Under the pieces are notes generated by a model, which was given only the letters and a program-made list of their open reading frames with translations, searched no databases and was not told the origin of the DNA. Shown piece by piece: positions 26,348 to 41,056 of a DNA stretch of 61,446 nucleotides. Position 1 is the first letter of the stretch, and every line of letters starts with the position of its first letter. Position numbers and translations under genes: made by a program. The stretch comes from a virus, in IMG/VR virus record IMGVR_UViG_3300036761_000480, positions 1-61,446 of that record, one strand, 5' to 3'.

Positions 26348-26365
26348 CTCATATGTGAACTATTC

Positions 26366-26375: not shown

Positions 26376-26401
26376 AAACTTTTCAGTTTTCCATAAGATA
26401 C

Positions 26402-26560
26402 GTGAACTACCCTCTAACTAAAATTTATGGGCTTCATGAGTCATCACTCCCACTAATGTGGGCAGTTCGTCATGATTTTCTTGTCTATGTTCCACAGACA
26501 AATAATTTCTTAAAGCAAAATTCTTAATATTTATAGCGGCGTTAAAATCTCTATCATGTA
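26402..26560 (-). ncRNA. Predicted omega RNA (reRNA) region of tnpB
   Basis: In IS605 elements the guide RNA covers the end of tnpB and the right end, with the guide read from flanking DNA. Here the conserved end is GGGTAGTTCAC and the guide would be the following 16-20 nt (GTATCTTATGG...). The terminal hairpin next to the end is poorly paired (CCCATAA...TTAGAGGG). The 5' limit is a guess. Confidence 0.5.
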
Positions 26561-27581
26561 CAGTACCACAACCATTACATATCCATTCTCTGTCTTTCAA
26601 TTCGAGTTCTTTATTAATATTGCCACAAATATGACAAGTTTTACTTGATGGTTCGAATCTTCCAATTTGTAAAATATTTTTACCATACCATTCTGATTTA
26701 TATTTCAACATATCAACAAACATTCCCCATCCAACATCTGAAATTGATTGAGATAGGTTATGATTTTGTAACATACCCTTAATATTAAGATTTTCAGTGG
26801 CAACACTATCGTGGCTCTTGATTAGTTGCGTTGAAATTTTATTTAAATAATCTTTGCGTTGATTAGTAACATATTCATACAAAATATTTAATCTATGTTT
26901 TGTTCGTTTACCTTTATATTTTGAATATTTACTCTGAATATATTTTAATCTTGATTCTGATTTTTTAAAAAATTTGGGATTATCGAACCTCAATCCATCA
27001 GAAGTAACTAAAAATGATTTAATACCCAAATCAATTCCAATGGTATTATTAATGGTTATATTGGATTTAATCGGAGTTACTATATTATTTTCAACTAATA
27101 TCGACACAAAATATTTACCCGTCGGTGTTTTACTAATAGTGGCTTGTTTGATGATTCCTTTAAATACTCTATGTAATATAATTTTAATACCTTTTTTAAA
27201 TTTAGGAATGATCAATTTATTATTATCAAAATCCACAATAACATTTTGTGGTATGTTAAAAGATTGTCTTGCTGATTTCTTTTTAAAATTTGGGAAATCT
27301 GCTTGTCCCTTAAAAAATTTAGTAAAAGCGTTATCCAAATGCGTTATTGATTGTTGCAATGATTGTGAGTTAATTTCTTTAAGCCAAGCACATTCTTTTT
27401 TTAAATCAGGAAGTTGTTTCATTAAATCAAAACATCCTAAATTAACTTTGTTGCCGGCATATGCGGTTTGCTTCGTTTCTAAAGCGAGATTATATAAAAA
27501 TCTACAACTACCAATATGTTTGTTTATTAGTTCTTGTTGAGTCCTAGTCGGTTCGATTCGATATTTATACGATTTAATCAT
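26418..27581 (-). CDS. tnpB: TnpB, RNA-guided RuvC-type endonuclease of IS200/IS605
   Basis: 387 residues, normal TnpB length. The N-terminal helix-turn-helix/OrfB region starts MIKSYKYRIEPTRTQQELIN. The split RuvC active site appears complete: Asp184 in IGIDLGIK, Glu263 in VATENLNIKGM and the Asp of HDRDFNAAINI (343-352). A zinc ribbon lies between (Cys316, Cys319, Cys335, Cys338). TnpB proteins cut DNA guided by an omega RNA made from the 3' end of the gene and the element's right end, next to a short target-adjacent motif. The last codons (ENHDELPTLVGVMTHEAH) overlap that RNA region. The gene looks intact; whether it is expressed is unknown. The ATG lies 4 nt after a GATATTTATA word, so it may use a phage-like promoter. 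Confidence 0.95.
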   Translation of the reverse strand: MIKSYKYRIEPTRTQQELINKHIGSCRFLYNLALETKQTAYAGNKVNLGCFDLMKQLPDLKKECAWLKEINSQSLQQSITHLDNAFTKFFKGQADFPNFKKKSARQSFNIPQNVIVDFDNNKLIIPKFKKGIKIILHRVFKGIIKQATISKTPTGKYFVSILVENNIVTPIKSNITINNTIGIDLGIKSFLVTSDGLRFDNPKFFKKSESRLKYIQSKYSKYKGKRTKHRLNILYEYVTNQRKDYLNKISTQLIKSHDSVATENLNIKGMLQNHNLSQSISDVGWGMFVDMLKYKSEWYGKNILQIGRFEPSSKTCHICGNINKELELKDREWICNGCGTVHDRDFNAAINIKNFALRNYLSVEHRQENHDELPTLVGVMTHEAHKF

Positions 27582-37434: not shown

Positions 37435-38100
37435 TCAAATGATTTTAGTAGATTTATGAATATTATCTAACCACCATAAAGGTTGAAGATTTGTGTAATG
37501 ACATAATTTATATAATTCATCTTCCGTTTTTGCTGAATCTAATGGCATCCTATGATCAATATGCCAACCAAATTGCCCGTGATTTTCCCAATTCATTCCA
37601 TCAGTAAATTGTTTTTCTAAATATTCCTTTAAATCTGATGGAGACATTCCAACAATTTCGAATGTCCTATTTCTTTTCGTTATATTAAGTTTTTTTAGAT
37701 ATTTATACATTCTGCCTCGTACATTATTAGTAATTTTATAAACTGGATCATCTTTTTGTCTTTCTTTTCTTCTCTCTCTTTTTCTTGGTTTATAATTTTT
37801 ACGATATTCTTTTCTTTTTTCTGGATTATTTTTATAAAAATTTTTATGATTTTCATTAATTTTTTCAGGATTTTCTAATCGATATTTTTTATACCTATTA
37901 TAAACCCATTCAGGATGTTTATGACACCAATCTCGTGTAAGTTTTAAACATTTTTGTGAGTTATTTTTTCTATATTTTTTACTTCTTTCATTATTACATG
38001 TACTACAAACACAAGAATATCCAGATTTACTCCTATTATTTTTAACAAAGTCATCTAATTCTTTTTCTAATCCACATTTACTGCAAATTTTTTGTAACAT
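37435..38100 (-). CDS. HNH homing endonuclease downstream of uvsX
   Basis: About 221 residues from the ATG at 38100 (MLQKICSKCGLEKEL). An upstream in-frame ATG at 38121 would overlap the end of uvsX by 20 nt and is less likely. The N-terminus has a four-Cys zinc ribbon (CSKCGLEKEL...CVCSTCNNER). A long basic helical linker follows, and the C-terminus has the HNH core WHIDHRMPLDSAKTEDELY then HYTNLQPLWWLDNIHKS. Free-standing HNH genes like this are common next to phage replication and nucleotide genes, where they spread by cutting uninserted relatives. The Lys/Arg/Tyr- and AT-rich composition matches the other mobile endonucleases here. Confidence 0.88.
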   Translation of the reverse strand: MLQKICSKCGLEKELDDFVKNNRSKSGYSCVCSTCNNERSKKYRKNNSQKCLKLTRDWCHKHPEWVYNRYKKYRLENPEKINENHKNFYKNNPEKRKEYRKNYKPRKRERRKERQKDDPVYKITNNVRGRMYKYLKKLNITKRNRTFEIVGMSPSDLKEYLEKQFTDGMNWENHGQFGWHIDHRMPLDSAKTEDELYKLCHYTNLQPLWWLDNIHKSTKII

Positions 38101-38101
38101 C

Positions 38102-39115
38102 CTATTCGGTATCTTCCTCACGTATAATATTTGCGTTTATTATTTCTGATATAGAAACACCTAATTTCTCACTAATATATTCCCCAGCAATTTTTTTATA
38201 TTCTTCGATAGATTTTTTTTCTTCGGCCTCGTTCTTTGCCTTCATAAAATCATGAGCTGTTATTAATATTTTACCGTCTTCATAACCAAGTCCAGTGAGA
38301 TGATTTTTCATTACACTAATTTTAGTTCTCGTTGCTATTTTAATTTTTCTACCATCTTTCGTGATGGATATCTTAGTTATGCCTGCTCCTTTCTGATTTC
38401 CGAATAAAAATACAAACGTTGAATTTAACCATACTGCATTTCCCCCTTTAGCCATAATTCTTGGCTGTCCAAATGGCCCATCTGGTAATTCAACCCATGC
38501 CTGATTGGACATAATCATTGTGTTCGTATATTTTCTATCTGACCTACGTGATCCAGTAATTCTCTGGTTTAGTCCCATTCCTATTTTATCCGATAATACC
38601 GATGCGGTCGCTTGTTTTCCACCCTTGCCGTCAAATGTCATTTTACATGGAACAGAACCCACAGAATCCCATAAAAAACATAAATCATAATCTATCTCTC
38701 CCTTATCTTGAGCATCAAGTAAGCTAGTAATATAATCTGTAATTTGTTCAACATAATCAAAATGATTATTAAAAAGAAAAAATCCGTCCCAATTAAAACT
38801 TCCATCTTCTTTAACCACCTTTTCACATTGAAATCCTAACAGTTTTGCATGTTCAAATGTCCATTTTTGTTCTGTAATAAGAAAAACAGGTAATATATTT
38901 TTTCTCTGTGCGTCTATTGCCGTTTTAATTAGAGCAACGGTTTTTCCTGTATCACTATGTCCTAATAACATATTTAAATGCCCCATAGCGGGGCCTGGAA
39001 TGCCGCAAGCATCCAAAAAAGCGTCCCCCAAATCAAAATATCTGTCAGGCTTAAATGATGCCTCTTCTGAATATTTCTTTTTTATTGCTGAAAAATCTTG
39101 TTTTTTAATTGCCAT
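38102..39115 (-). CDS. uvsX: UvsX/RecA-like recombinase
   Basis: 337 residues. Walker A GHSDTGKT at 52-59, Walker B in YDLCFLWDSVGS (143-154), followed by the conserved NQRITGSRR / NTMIMSNQAWVELP region. T4 UvsX-type recombinases form filaments on single-stranded DNA to drive strand exchange and recombination-dependent replication, working with gp32. It is directly downstream of gp32, separated by a strong hairpin, and directly upstream of an HNH gene that starts at its stop codon. The C-terminal helical tail is charged (EEKKSIEEYKKIAGEYISEK), ending in acidic residues, as usual. Confidence 0.92.
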   Translation of the reverse strand: MAIKKQDFSAIKKKYSEEASFKPDRYFDLGDAFLDACGIPGPAMGHLNMLLGHSDTGKTVALIKTAIDAQRKNILPVFLITEQKWTFEHAKLLGFQCEKVVKEDGSFNWDGFFLFNNHFDYVEQITDYITSLLDAQDKGEIDYDLCFLWDSVGSVPCKMTFDGKGGKQATASVLSDKIGMGLNQRITGSRRSDRKYTNTMIMSNQAWVELPDGPFGQPRIMAKGGNAVWLNSTFVFLFGNQKGAGITKISITKDGRKIKIATRTKISVMKNHLTGLGYEDGKILITAHDFMKAKNEAEEKKSIEEYKKIAGEYISEKLGVSISEIINANIIREEDTE

Positions 39116-39180: not shown

Positions 39181-40026
39181 TTAAAAAGGTAAATCTGCCT
39201 CGTCATCGGGTTCTGCCTCCGCTTGTGGATCTTCAGGAACTTTACCTGGTACTGATCCAGCAATTGTTTCTTCTGCTGTTGCCGCTGAAACCCATTTTTT
39301 AAGATCATTATCCCATTTTGGGGTTTCCCCTTGGGCGACCATATCGAGATACTCCTCTGGTTTCTTAGCATAAACATCTGACCATACAAGAAGATCATTA
39401 AGCCATTTCTGTGCCGTCTCCTCATTTTCATGTAATGGACTAGGATCTTCTGGAATGATAGAATTGATTACTGTATACACTCTGCCTGTGCCTGATGTGG
39501 TAAGGGATAATGAAAGAATCAAATCACGACCTTTAACGGGATCGGTGATGTCACCCTTATTTTTCCAAATCGGGTAGATTTTATCAAAAACGCCTTCCCC
39601 TTTGGCGTTATTCTTAAATCTCCAGAATTTTGGGCCGTCTTGCTCATGATCTCTGTCAATTACTTTTACAACAAAGAATTTACGTGAGCGATAGGATTTC
39701 GCTAGTTCTTTGTCAGATTCGACGCCAGTAGCTTCAAGGCTGTCTTTAACTTCGTTCAAGGGAGAACGTTTATGTTCCTGCTTCGGGTCCCAAAGTTTAA
39801 CCCATTTTCCATCCACCTGTACTTCGTGGAAAAATACCTCTACAAACGGCGTCGATCCATCTTTTGGAGATAAGATGCGTACCCGTCTTTCCTCACTTTC
39901 AGAACCTTTCGGTAATACGGTGGTAAAATACTTCTTCATTCGTTCCTCTTGAGAGGCGAATTTGTTGCCGCCTGCGGCTTTCTTGTTTTTTTCGTACTGT
40001 TCTTGTACTGCTTCAAATGTTCCCAT
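39181..40026 (-). CDS. gp32-like single-stranded DNA-binding protein
   Basis: 281 residues (T4 gp32 is 301). The N-terminal basic stretch, the core with VRILSPKDGSTPFVEVFFHE, KFFVVKVIDRDHEQDGPKFWRF and GRDLILSLSLTTSGTGRVY, and an acidic C-terminal tail ending EPDDEADLPF match the gp32 plan: cooperativity domain, OB-fold, and protein-recruiting tail. The whole protein contains no cysteine, so the Cys-His zinc site of T4 gp32 is absent. It has its own Bacteroidota-type promoter and is isolated by hairpins on both sides, consistent with high separate expression. Coats single-stranded DNA in replication and recombination. Confidence 0.9.
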   Translation of the reverse strand: MGTFEAVQEQYEKNKKAAGGNKFASQEERMKKYFTTVLPKGSESEERRVRILSPKDGSTPFVEVFFHEVQVDGKWVKLWDPKQEHKRSPLNEVKDSLEATGVESDKELAKSYRSRKFFVVKVIDRDHEQDGPKFWRFKNNAKGEGVFDKIYPIWKNKGDITDPVKGRDLILSLSLTTSGTGRVYTVINSIIPEDPSPLHENEETAQKWLNDLLVWSDVYAKKPEEYLDMVAQGETPKWDNDLKKWVSAATAEETIAGSVPGKVPEDPQAEAEPDDEADLPF

Positions 40027-40127: not shown

Positions 40128-40162
40128 ATCGGCTTCGGAAGATATGTTCCTCCAAAGCCGAT
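40128..40162 (-). terminator. Strong Rho-independent terminator upstream of the gp32 promoter
   Basis: The minus strand forms ATCGGCTTTGGA/TCCGAAGCCGAT (12 pairs with one G-T) and then TTTTTATTTATTTT. It insulates gp32 from the upstream tail operon. Confidence 0.85.
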
Positions 40163-40194: not shown

Positions 40195-40219
40195 AAAAAA
40201 TCCGTTGCCGCGTGCGGCG
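40195..40219 (-). terminator. GC-rich hairpin followed by T-run (second terminator candidate)
   Basis: Stem GCCGC/GCGGC with a 2-nt loop, then AACGGATTTTTT on the minus strand. The T-run lies 6 nt after the stem, so it is weaker than the one at 40128. Confidence 0.5.
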
Positions 40220-40241
40220 TATTAGAAAATAAGTTAATATA

Positions 40242-40344
40242 GTGAACTACCCACGAATTAGAAATCCGTGAGCTTCATGAGTCATCACTCCCACTAATGT
40301 AGGTAGTTCGTCATGATTTTCTTGTCTGTGTTCCCCAGACAAAT
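40242..40344 (-). mobile_element. Solo right end / omega-RNA-like fragment of an IS605-type element, without tnpB
   Basis: It matches the tnpB 3' end and right end at 26402-26503: about 68 of 72 bases identical over the shared inner part, with one indel and several changes in the terminal hairpin. On the minus strand it still reads the last TnpB codons (ENHDELPTLVGVMTHEAHGF) and then GGGTAGTTCAC. Differences from the tnpB copy are mostly synonymous third positions. The terminal hairpin CACGGATT/AATTCGTG is fully paired here. It lies in the 352-bp gap upstream of gp32; the rest of that gap holds two hairpins and the gp32 promoter. Confidence 0.85.
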
Positions 40345-40378
40345 TAAAGATACATAATTATTTTGAAATTTTCAAGTA

Positions 40379-41056
40379 TTAAAATGTGTTTTGATCGATA
40401 TTTGGGTTAAATGACTTCATTACATCATATTTACCATAATTTTCGACATCTCCTTTAGTAAGGACGTATTCATTTTTTCCTGTTTTTTCCATTTCGCCTC
40501 GTTTTTCGGCAAAAAAATCGTCAGGCTTTTTATTAAATGGATACGAATCCAATGATCTCATCTCAAGTTTCTCCATTGGAGTTTTTGGCTTAACCTGTTG
40601 AATTTGATCTCCTAATTGATCAATTTTTGCTAATACATTATCCATTTCACCTAATCTGGCTTCTAAATCATTCAACTTTGTAAAAACATCATCTAATTTT
40701 TGTGTGGCACCCGTATCTTGGCCTTGTGTATCATCTAGTTGTTTCTTAATACTCTTAGTCATATTAACCAAATCTGTAATATCAAGTTCTTCGGTTGTGT
40801 CGTCTGCAGACGGATCTGTATCACCCAAATCTGTACCTTTCTCTTCTGCTTCAGGTGGTAAATCTTCTGCTGGCGGTATTGCTGGGTCTGCTGGATCTGC
40901 TGGTGGTGCCGCAGCTGCTGGATCTGCTGGTGGTGCCGCAGCTGCTGGATCTGCTGGCGGTGGCGGTAACGGAGGTTCTTGTTCTGATAATAGTCTCTCA
41001 GTATATTTGTTTATAGCATTGAAACGCTTTAGTTCTTCCTGTAATAAGTTTTCCAT
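40379..41056 (-). CDS. Hypothetical protein with Pro-Ala repeat and coiled coil
   Basis: 225 residues, not recognised. Residues 1-24 are helical and charged. Residues about 25-60 are a PPADPAAAA repeat from two exact 27-bp DNA copies plus partial ones. An acidic stretch follows, and residues about 95-160 form heptad-like helices (ITDLVNMTKSIKKQLDD; LDDVFTKLNDLEARLGEMD). The C-terminal ~60 residues are mixed. Comparable Pro/Ala-linker plus coiled-coil proteins occur near late genes of T4-like phages, but no function can be claimed. It is the last gene of the baseplate operon before the terminators; 11 nt separate it from the 65-aa gene. Confidence 0.75.
   Translation of the reverse strand: MENLLQEELKRFNAINKYTERLLSEQEPPLPPPPADPAAAAPPADPAAAAPPADPADPAIPPAEDLPPEAEEKGTDLGDTDPSADDTTEELDITDLVNMTKSIKKQLDDTQGQDTGATQKLDDVFTKLNDLEARLGEMDNVLAKIDQLGDQIQQVKPKTPMEKLEMRSLDSYPFNKKPDDFFAEKRGEMEKTGKNEYVLTKGDVENYGKYDVMKSFNPNIDQNTF
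40896..40949 (-). repeat. 27-bp tandem repeat, two exact copies
   Basis: 40896-40922 and 40923-40949 are identical; each encodes PPADPAAAA. This short stretch is much more GC-rich than the surroundings. Confidence 0.9.

Follow-up and report, generated by a model that had tools for sequence, protein, structure and literature searches.

The Locus and Its Two Right Ends

The window, by which we mean the entire 61,446-bp stretch of DNA that was analyzed, belongs to a tailed phage and encodes gp32-like and UvsX-like proteins, an endonuclease VII and baseplate wedge proteins. A terminase marker gave no match in any record, the window included, and phage identity was taken from PHROG matches instead. 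The endonuclease VII-like gene (37435–38121) overlaps the end of the UvsX-like gene and shows 74% nucleotide similarity over approximately 180 bp to endonuclease genes of Flavobacterium phage elemo. The region of interest lies between the gene for a 225-aa protein (40379–41056, minus strand; taken from the list of open reading frames, without a match in PHROG and Pfam) and the downstream gene for a gp32-like single-stranded DNA-binding protein (39181–40026, minus strand; Pfam PF08804, PHROG 1192). On the same strand, 35 nt past the upstream stop codon, a tnpB-less copy of an IS200/IS605-type right end is found at 40242–40344 (hereafter B); the tnpB-linked copy at 26.4 kb is referred to as A.

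Comparison of the window with itself (blastn) aligned positions 40235–40344 with 26394–26503 at 87.4% identity over 111 columns, with E values of 7e-33 and 3e-32 for the two directions. The remaining matches were short noise, and neither this comparison nor a covariance model found a third copy within the 61,446-bp record. The match spans approximately the last 28 codons of tnpB and the right end, and both copies are closed by GTAGTTCAC, of which the window holds just these two occurrences. Those codons are all that B retains of tnpB, and neither a transposase nor a tnpB gene is present inside the 103 bp. Within B we delimited a 102-nt ωRNA scaffold (40242–40343, minus strand) that ends in GTAGTTCAC, is 87% identical to A and scores 118.5 bits with covariance model R1 (model positions 1–102), with zero non-standard pairs. 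The 5′ break of B coincides exactly with the start of this scaffold. Rfam gave no match in the window at the gathering threshold, and chance matches alone over B at a relaxed threshold; a nucleotide search with B against 50,697 phage records gave no match.

There are 12 differences between A and B across the 102-nt scaffold; in the reading frame that the two copies share, five codon differences are synonymous and two are not. With L179, a viral contig whose TnpB is 77% identical to that of the window, as outgroup, six changes fall on the B branch and three on the A branch, with three left unassigned. Because the changes are split over both branches, A and B are sister lineages and B is no fresh duplicate. 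The preliminary description had read 40242–40344 as a copy of the tnpB 3′ end and right end, with mostly synonymous differences, from a related yet distinct tnpB lineage; the alignment (87% to A, E approximately 3e-32), the codon comparison and the outgroup bear out each of these points.

The Resident TnpB and Its ωRNA

The intact tnpB of the window (26418–27581, minus strand) encodes 387 aa with three tnpB domains in Pfam. Its alignment to ISDra2 TnpB structures (E = 9e-61) covers the RuvC residues D, E and D, all of which are present, and like ISDra2 TnpB and AmaTnpB it is of the DRDxN (Typical) type. B lies approximately 13 kb away, so that its possible partner is RuvC-intact but non-adjacent. 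A Y1 transposase was not found in the 61-kb record; with no tnpB in the fragment either, B is not an autonomous IS200/IS605 element.

The scaffold of A (26402–26502, minus strand) scores 111.6 bits with model R1 and has two broken pairs. It is followed by the guide GTATCTTATGGAAAACTGAA (26382–26401, minus strand), which equals the empty site: more than 25 relatives carry this site uninterrupted, as in L196, where TTTGTTTTTTAT is followed by GTATCTTATGGAAAA and a 15-nt seed match is present. Since the relatives show the site uninterrupted, the guide of A corresponds to a site conserved in related phages. The tnpB insertion at 26.4–27.6 kb splits this strongly conserved intergenic site, TTTTTTATGTATCTTATAGAAAACTG...TTTCTATTTATA (L194–L272), which lies upstream of a large gene adjoining a baseplate wedge gene. 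The match of guide and empty site is what an ordinary TnpB insertion produces, and fits the gene-drive behavior by which TnpB acts against IS-free plasmids (PMC11870625). As in that system, the guide of A matches uninterrupted sites, here in related phages; the plasmid gene drive was demonstrated with IS-encoded guides, however, and not with a detached guide RNA of the kind represented by B (PMC11870625).

A second GTGAACTATTC (reverse strand GAATAGTTCAC) is located at approximately 26353–26362, some 45 nt beyond the right end of A, and is preceded by a short CTATT/AATAG hairpin. It is possibly an older right-end tip or a chance occurrence.

Conserved RNA Fold of the tnpB-less Copy

For the analysis of the fold, A and B were aligned with the right ends of TnpB relatives from three other viral contigs, L179, L177 and L178, whose proteins are 77, 69, and 67% identical to the TnpB of the window. 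The aligned copies have in common a hairpin P1 at the 5′ end, a stem P2 around hairpin P3, a hairpin P4, and a long-range pairing. In B, all on the minus strand, P1 (TTGTCTG/CAGACAA) occupies 40322–40342, with GTGTAAG/CTTACAC as its counterpart in L179, and P2 (TCATGA/TCATGA) around P3 (CCTAC/GTGGG) occupies 40275–40316, with a covariation score of 0.802 over 10 tnpB-less copies versus 0.307 when shuffled. The terminal hairpin P4 (40250–40272), supported by fold and pair counts, has 10 bp and stands 8 nt before the end of the scaffold. The long-range pairing (40244–40309) joins GAACT (40305–40309) to AGTTC (40244–40248) and is present in all five copies, with a C-G to U-G change in L177. In L179, P1 and P2 are preserved through changes on both strands of the stem.

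In B, each of the 33 expected pairs is canonical; in A, 31 of 33 are. As described before, the terminal hairpin is perfect in B (10 of 10 paired) and eroded in A, where it carries two A-A mismatches. The covariance-model scores (118.5 bits for B, 111.6 bits for A) rank the two copies and are no proof of homology, because the input of the model includes both. None of the six changes on the B branch breaks a pair, whereas with substitutions placed at random on the inferred ancestor 29.8 pairs survive on average (P of 33 or more = 0.006), from which we conclude that B is structurally undecayed since the split from A. The predicted fold of the B scaffold has an energy of −34.3 kcal/mol (z = −4.4). 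Pair retention gives no date for the loss of tnpB, as this selection was equally at work in the presence of tnpB, and the structural conservation of B may stem from a tnpB-bearing stage of the element.

The organization of B resembles that of known reRNAs and ωRNAs. In ISDra2 the reRNA guide is the sequence directly 3′ of the right end (PMC8612924), and the processed AmaTnpB scaffold comprises 106 nt with four stem-loops (PMC10278001). The 102-nt scaffold of B is close in size to this IS200/IS605 scaffold and likewise consists of the tnpB 3′ end and the right end, with the guide position in the flanking DNA (PMC8612924; PMC10278001) and a hairpin no more than 10 nt from the 3′ end. Unlike the ISDra2 and AmaTnpB ωRNAs, B lacks tnpB, is 13 kb away from a tnpB gene and has a promoter-like site of its own. 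With a homologous scaffold that has a defined 3′ boundary, and a conserved structure with a subterminal hairpin, B shares these features with OMEGA/TnpB ωRNAs, and we regard it as almost certain that B is an intact ωRNA unit without tnpB.

Transcription-Type Signals Around B

A promoter-like site TTG-N20-TATCTTTA (40345–40375, minus strand), identified by motif scans, ends 1 nt before the scaffold. It is of the phage/Bacteroidota type, a short and AT-rich motif whose coding-strand intergenic matches elsewhere mostly stand in front of genes. Such sites precede gp32 (TTTG-N20-TATATTTG) and the gene for a 151-aa protein at 37.4 kb; the site of B resembles these gp32-type sites and also TATCTTTG in front of the tnpB of L016, and may be either native to the phage or an IS left-end promoter. 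Approximately 80 nt downstream of B, terminator scan and folding identified an intrinsic-terminator-like hairpin with a 15-bp stem and a T-rich tail (40128–40162, minus strand). The RNA predicted from the promoter-like site to this terminator would measure approximately 225 nt (fold z = −6.9), and by these motifs the surroundings of B look like a transcription unit.

A GC-rich mini-hairpin, TAATACGCCGCACGCGGCAA, is found at 40202–40222, directly after the candidate guide of B. It is similar to a GCCGC..GCGGC hairpin at 39964–39978, inside the gp32 coding region.

Candidate Guide and Distribution Among Relatives

By analogy with the reRNA (PMC8612924), the candidate guide of B is TATATTAACTTATTTTCTAA (40222–40241, minus strand), directly 3′ of the right end. 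Outside its own population, only three viral contigs, all unrelated, contain the first 18 nt; they share no 5′ motif or target-adjacent motif (TAM), and these matches were judged to be chance. None of 395 genomes from one phylum, which may not be that of the host, contained the combination of TAM and seed. The preliminary description had proposed to look for matches to the guide next to such a motif; for TATATTAACTTATTTTCTAA, no target emerged from these searches.

Both possible ends of the left flank of B read TTTAA, and we infer TTTAA/TTTAT to be the TAM; an uninterrupted allele of the site would then read TTTAA or TTTAT followed by TATATTAACTTATTTTC. Two relatives, L021 and L022, have the upstream gene in common with the window, as well as the 3′ flank, in which TAATACGCCGCACGCGGCAA is identical, and lack the ωRNA. 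The empty site of B was not found in these two loci, which cannot define it because their intergenic DNA is too different. Their sequence GAGTAGTTTTTAC resembles the right-end tip GGTAGTTCAC, which could be chance.

In the 80 closest gp32-relative loci, a match to B was absent save for three loci on contigs of the same population. The covariance model matched 4 of 48 virus records, one from the same population and three being known contigs with a related tnpB. As far as sampled, B is specific to this lineage. Absence from relatives is what the preliminary description had listed as speaking against retention; the fragment itself, however, proved undecayed (33 of 33 pairs).

Interpretation of the Detached ωRNA

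The reading that we slightly favor is that B is a tnpB-less guide-RNA unit left by an IS605-type core deletion and still capable of supplying the resident TnpB with a guide in trans. The tnpB of an IS200/IS605-type element would have been deleted, with the right-end ωRNA/reRNA unit staying behind; phage or host polymerase would make an RNA of approximately 225 nt from the start of the scaffold. Since the scaffold of A is 87% identical to B and has the same fold, the resident TnpB would bind this RNA in trans, and the roughly 20 nt after GTAGTTCAC would serve as a second guide, aimed at DNA with the uninterrupted site; such cutting may benefit the phage or may be no more than a leftover ability. 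Among the readings considered, an expressed B that the resident TnpB can use in trans ranks first, at about even chances. The notion of a retained guide RNA, as opposed to decay, is upheld in part: the intact structure, the RuvC-intact TnpB, the promoter- and terminator-like flanks and the recurrence of tnpB-less ωRNAs in other contigs speak for it, and the guide, for which the searches gave no target, against it.

A related proposal exists for TldR, the phage-encoded nuclease-dead TnpB, where guide RNAs acting in trans were suggested for a frameshifted tldR locus (PMC13418256). B is likewise a phage-borne TnpB-family guide RNA; unlike TldR, the TnpB of the window keeps its nuclease residues, and B is not adjacent to it (PMC13418256).

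The main rival reading, to which we assign a substantial but smaller likelihood, is that B is an inert relic, a right-end stub from a recent core deletion, whose fold is kept since it is young and whose transcript, if any, is a by-product of a neighboring promoter. Core deletions that yield terminal-only IS605-type elements are described in Haloquadratum (PMC3119063), and B resembles them and the PATEs in having lost tnpB and kept the right end, presumably in the same manner. The absence of B in relatives, the guide without a target found, and the existence elsewhere of a clearly truncated stub without P1, joined to a shortened reading frame (L176), are consistent with such a relic. However, the 5′ break of B falls exactly at the scaffold start, straight after the promoter-like site, and B fits the covariance model better than A does.

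It is very unlikely that the hairpins of B are a cis-acting RNA, either a 3′ stabilizer or terminator for the upstream gene or a gp32 leader. The position on the same strand shortly after the upstream stop codon would suit this role, but there is no T-run after P4, where the terminator scan finds no terminator, a separate promoter-like site for gp32 lies downstream, and the gene pair occurs in relatives without B.

tnpB-less ωRNAs in Other Viral Contigs

A right-end pattern search in viral contigs gave a first count of 35 tnpB-less copies out of 94 right ends, among the matches listed. After removal of duplicates and of copies near locus ends (<700 bp upstream), and a check for missed TnpB motifs, 71 right ends were left among the matches listed, 40 of them tnpB-linked, 30 tnpB-less and 1 doubtful. 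The promoter motif TTG-N18-21-TAnnTTT was present 88–200 nt upstream of the end in 7 of the 30 tnpB-less versus 0 of the 40 tnpB-linked copies (Fisher p = 0.0017; among the matches listed), an imperfect control because this stretch is coding in the tnpB-linked copies. Ten tnpB-less copies, B among them, have 94.3% paired cells and ten pairs changed on both sides; their covariation score is 0.80, versus 0.31 when shuffled and at most 0.16 when slid. Each of these covarying copies may derive from a different tnpB. tnpB-less ωRNAs are a recurrent class in viral contigs, the phage status of which rests on IMG/VR and on PHROG matches (e.g., a Dda-like helicase and a sigma factor). Stand-alone ωRNAs were reportedly mentioned in the 2021 OMEGA paper, and the class is an extension of known things, namely IS605 ωRNAs and PATEs.

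An IS605-type left-end hairpin was detected within 420 nt in 9 of the 30 tnpB-less copies (among the matches listed), which on account of this hairpin are complete short elements. Four of these nine (L287, L307, L327, and L313) have a common sharp left boundary, TTTATAAA-GGAG, some 218 bp before the right end. This boundary points to TTTAT as the target and TAM. These four and L289/L277 have, like B, a full scaffold with P2–P4, and carry TTG-N18-21-TAnnTTT a few to approximately 20 nt before P1; several of their contigs have a TnpB elsewhere. They look complete with their left-end hairpin, whereas B lacks one. PATEs have palindromes near both ends, while B is a right end alone with no detectable left end, and the Haloquadratum passages on PATEs do not discuss guide RNAs (PMC3119063).

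A TnpB is combined with more than one ωRNA on several contigs. The number of ωRNA hits per contig was four in G002 (IMGVR_UViG_3300031344_000002, which has one tnpB), ten in G052 (IMGVR_UViG_3300025839_000011, 93 kb), eight in the overlapping G053, and two in the contig of B. A Y1 transposase had no match in the 218 kb of G002; G052/G053 carry several TnpB and Y1 transposase genes, and their multi-copy elements of approximately 218 bp are each built from a left end, a promoter-like site, an ωRNA and a right end. That B is itself a still-mobile, non-autonomous element of the PATE kind, mobilized in trans by TnpA and with the ωRNA as passenger, is suggested by the related units of G052 and G002 with a left-end hairpin after TTTAT and by the shared left boundary of four units, but is the least credible reading of all, as the 420 nt before B contain no left-end hairpin like that of the related units and the 61-kb record contains neither a match to the left-end motif nor a Y1 transposase.

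If B is a guide-RNA unit used in trans by the resident TnpB, its retention for harm to competitors is possible, unproven and rather improbable. In a wider form, phages of this kind would maintain small sets of guide-RNA genes that have promoters but no nuclease, all used in trans by a single TnpB. Such a minimal multi-guide system would cut competing phages without the marked sites, with B, G002 and G052/G053 as examples; this we consider unlikely. TnpB guides are usually regarded as fixed by the position of the transposon. If detached, promoter-bearing ωRNA genes were used in trans, one phage TnpB could carry several guides. Such an arrangement would be intermediate between selfish transposon homing and multi-guide CRISPR-like systems, and might serve as a weapon among phages.

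Three loci of G002 are described separately. L277 (970–1592; 23.2–23.8 kb of G002) holds a tandem pair of tnpB-less ωRNAs, the first of which combines a full scaffold with a TTTG-N19-TATCTTTA promoter-like site and with a left-end hairpin that follows TTTAT; L289, on another contig, has the same cassette. At L015 (78–764), a Tad4-type Thoeris inhibitor gene (Pfam PF25186) is encoded approximately 2.2 kb from a related tnpB. L176 (3950–4077; 163.6 kb of G002) is a tnpB-less right end without P1, behind a short truncated reading frame MFELLLGHLCGDFLFQ..., and in contrast to B is likely a decayed stub.
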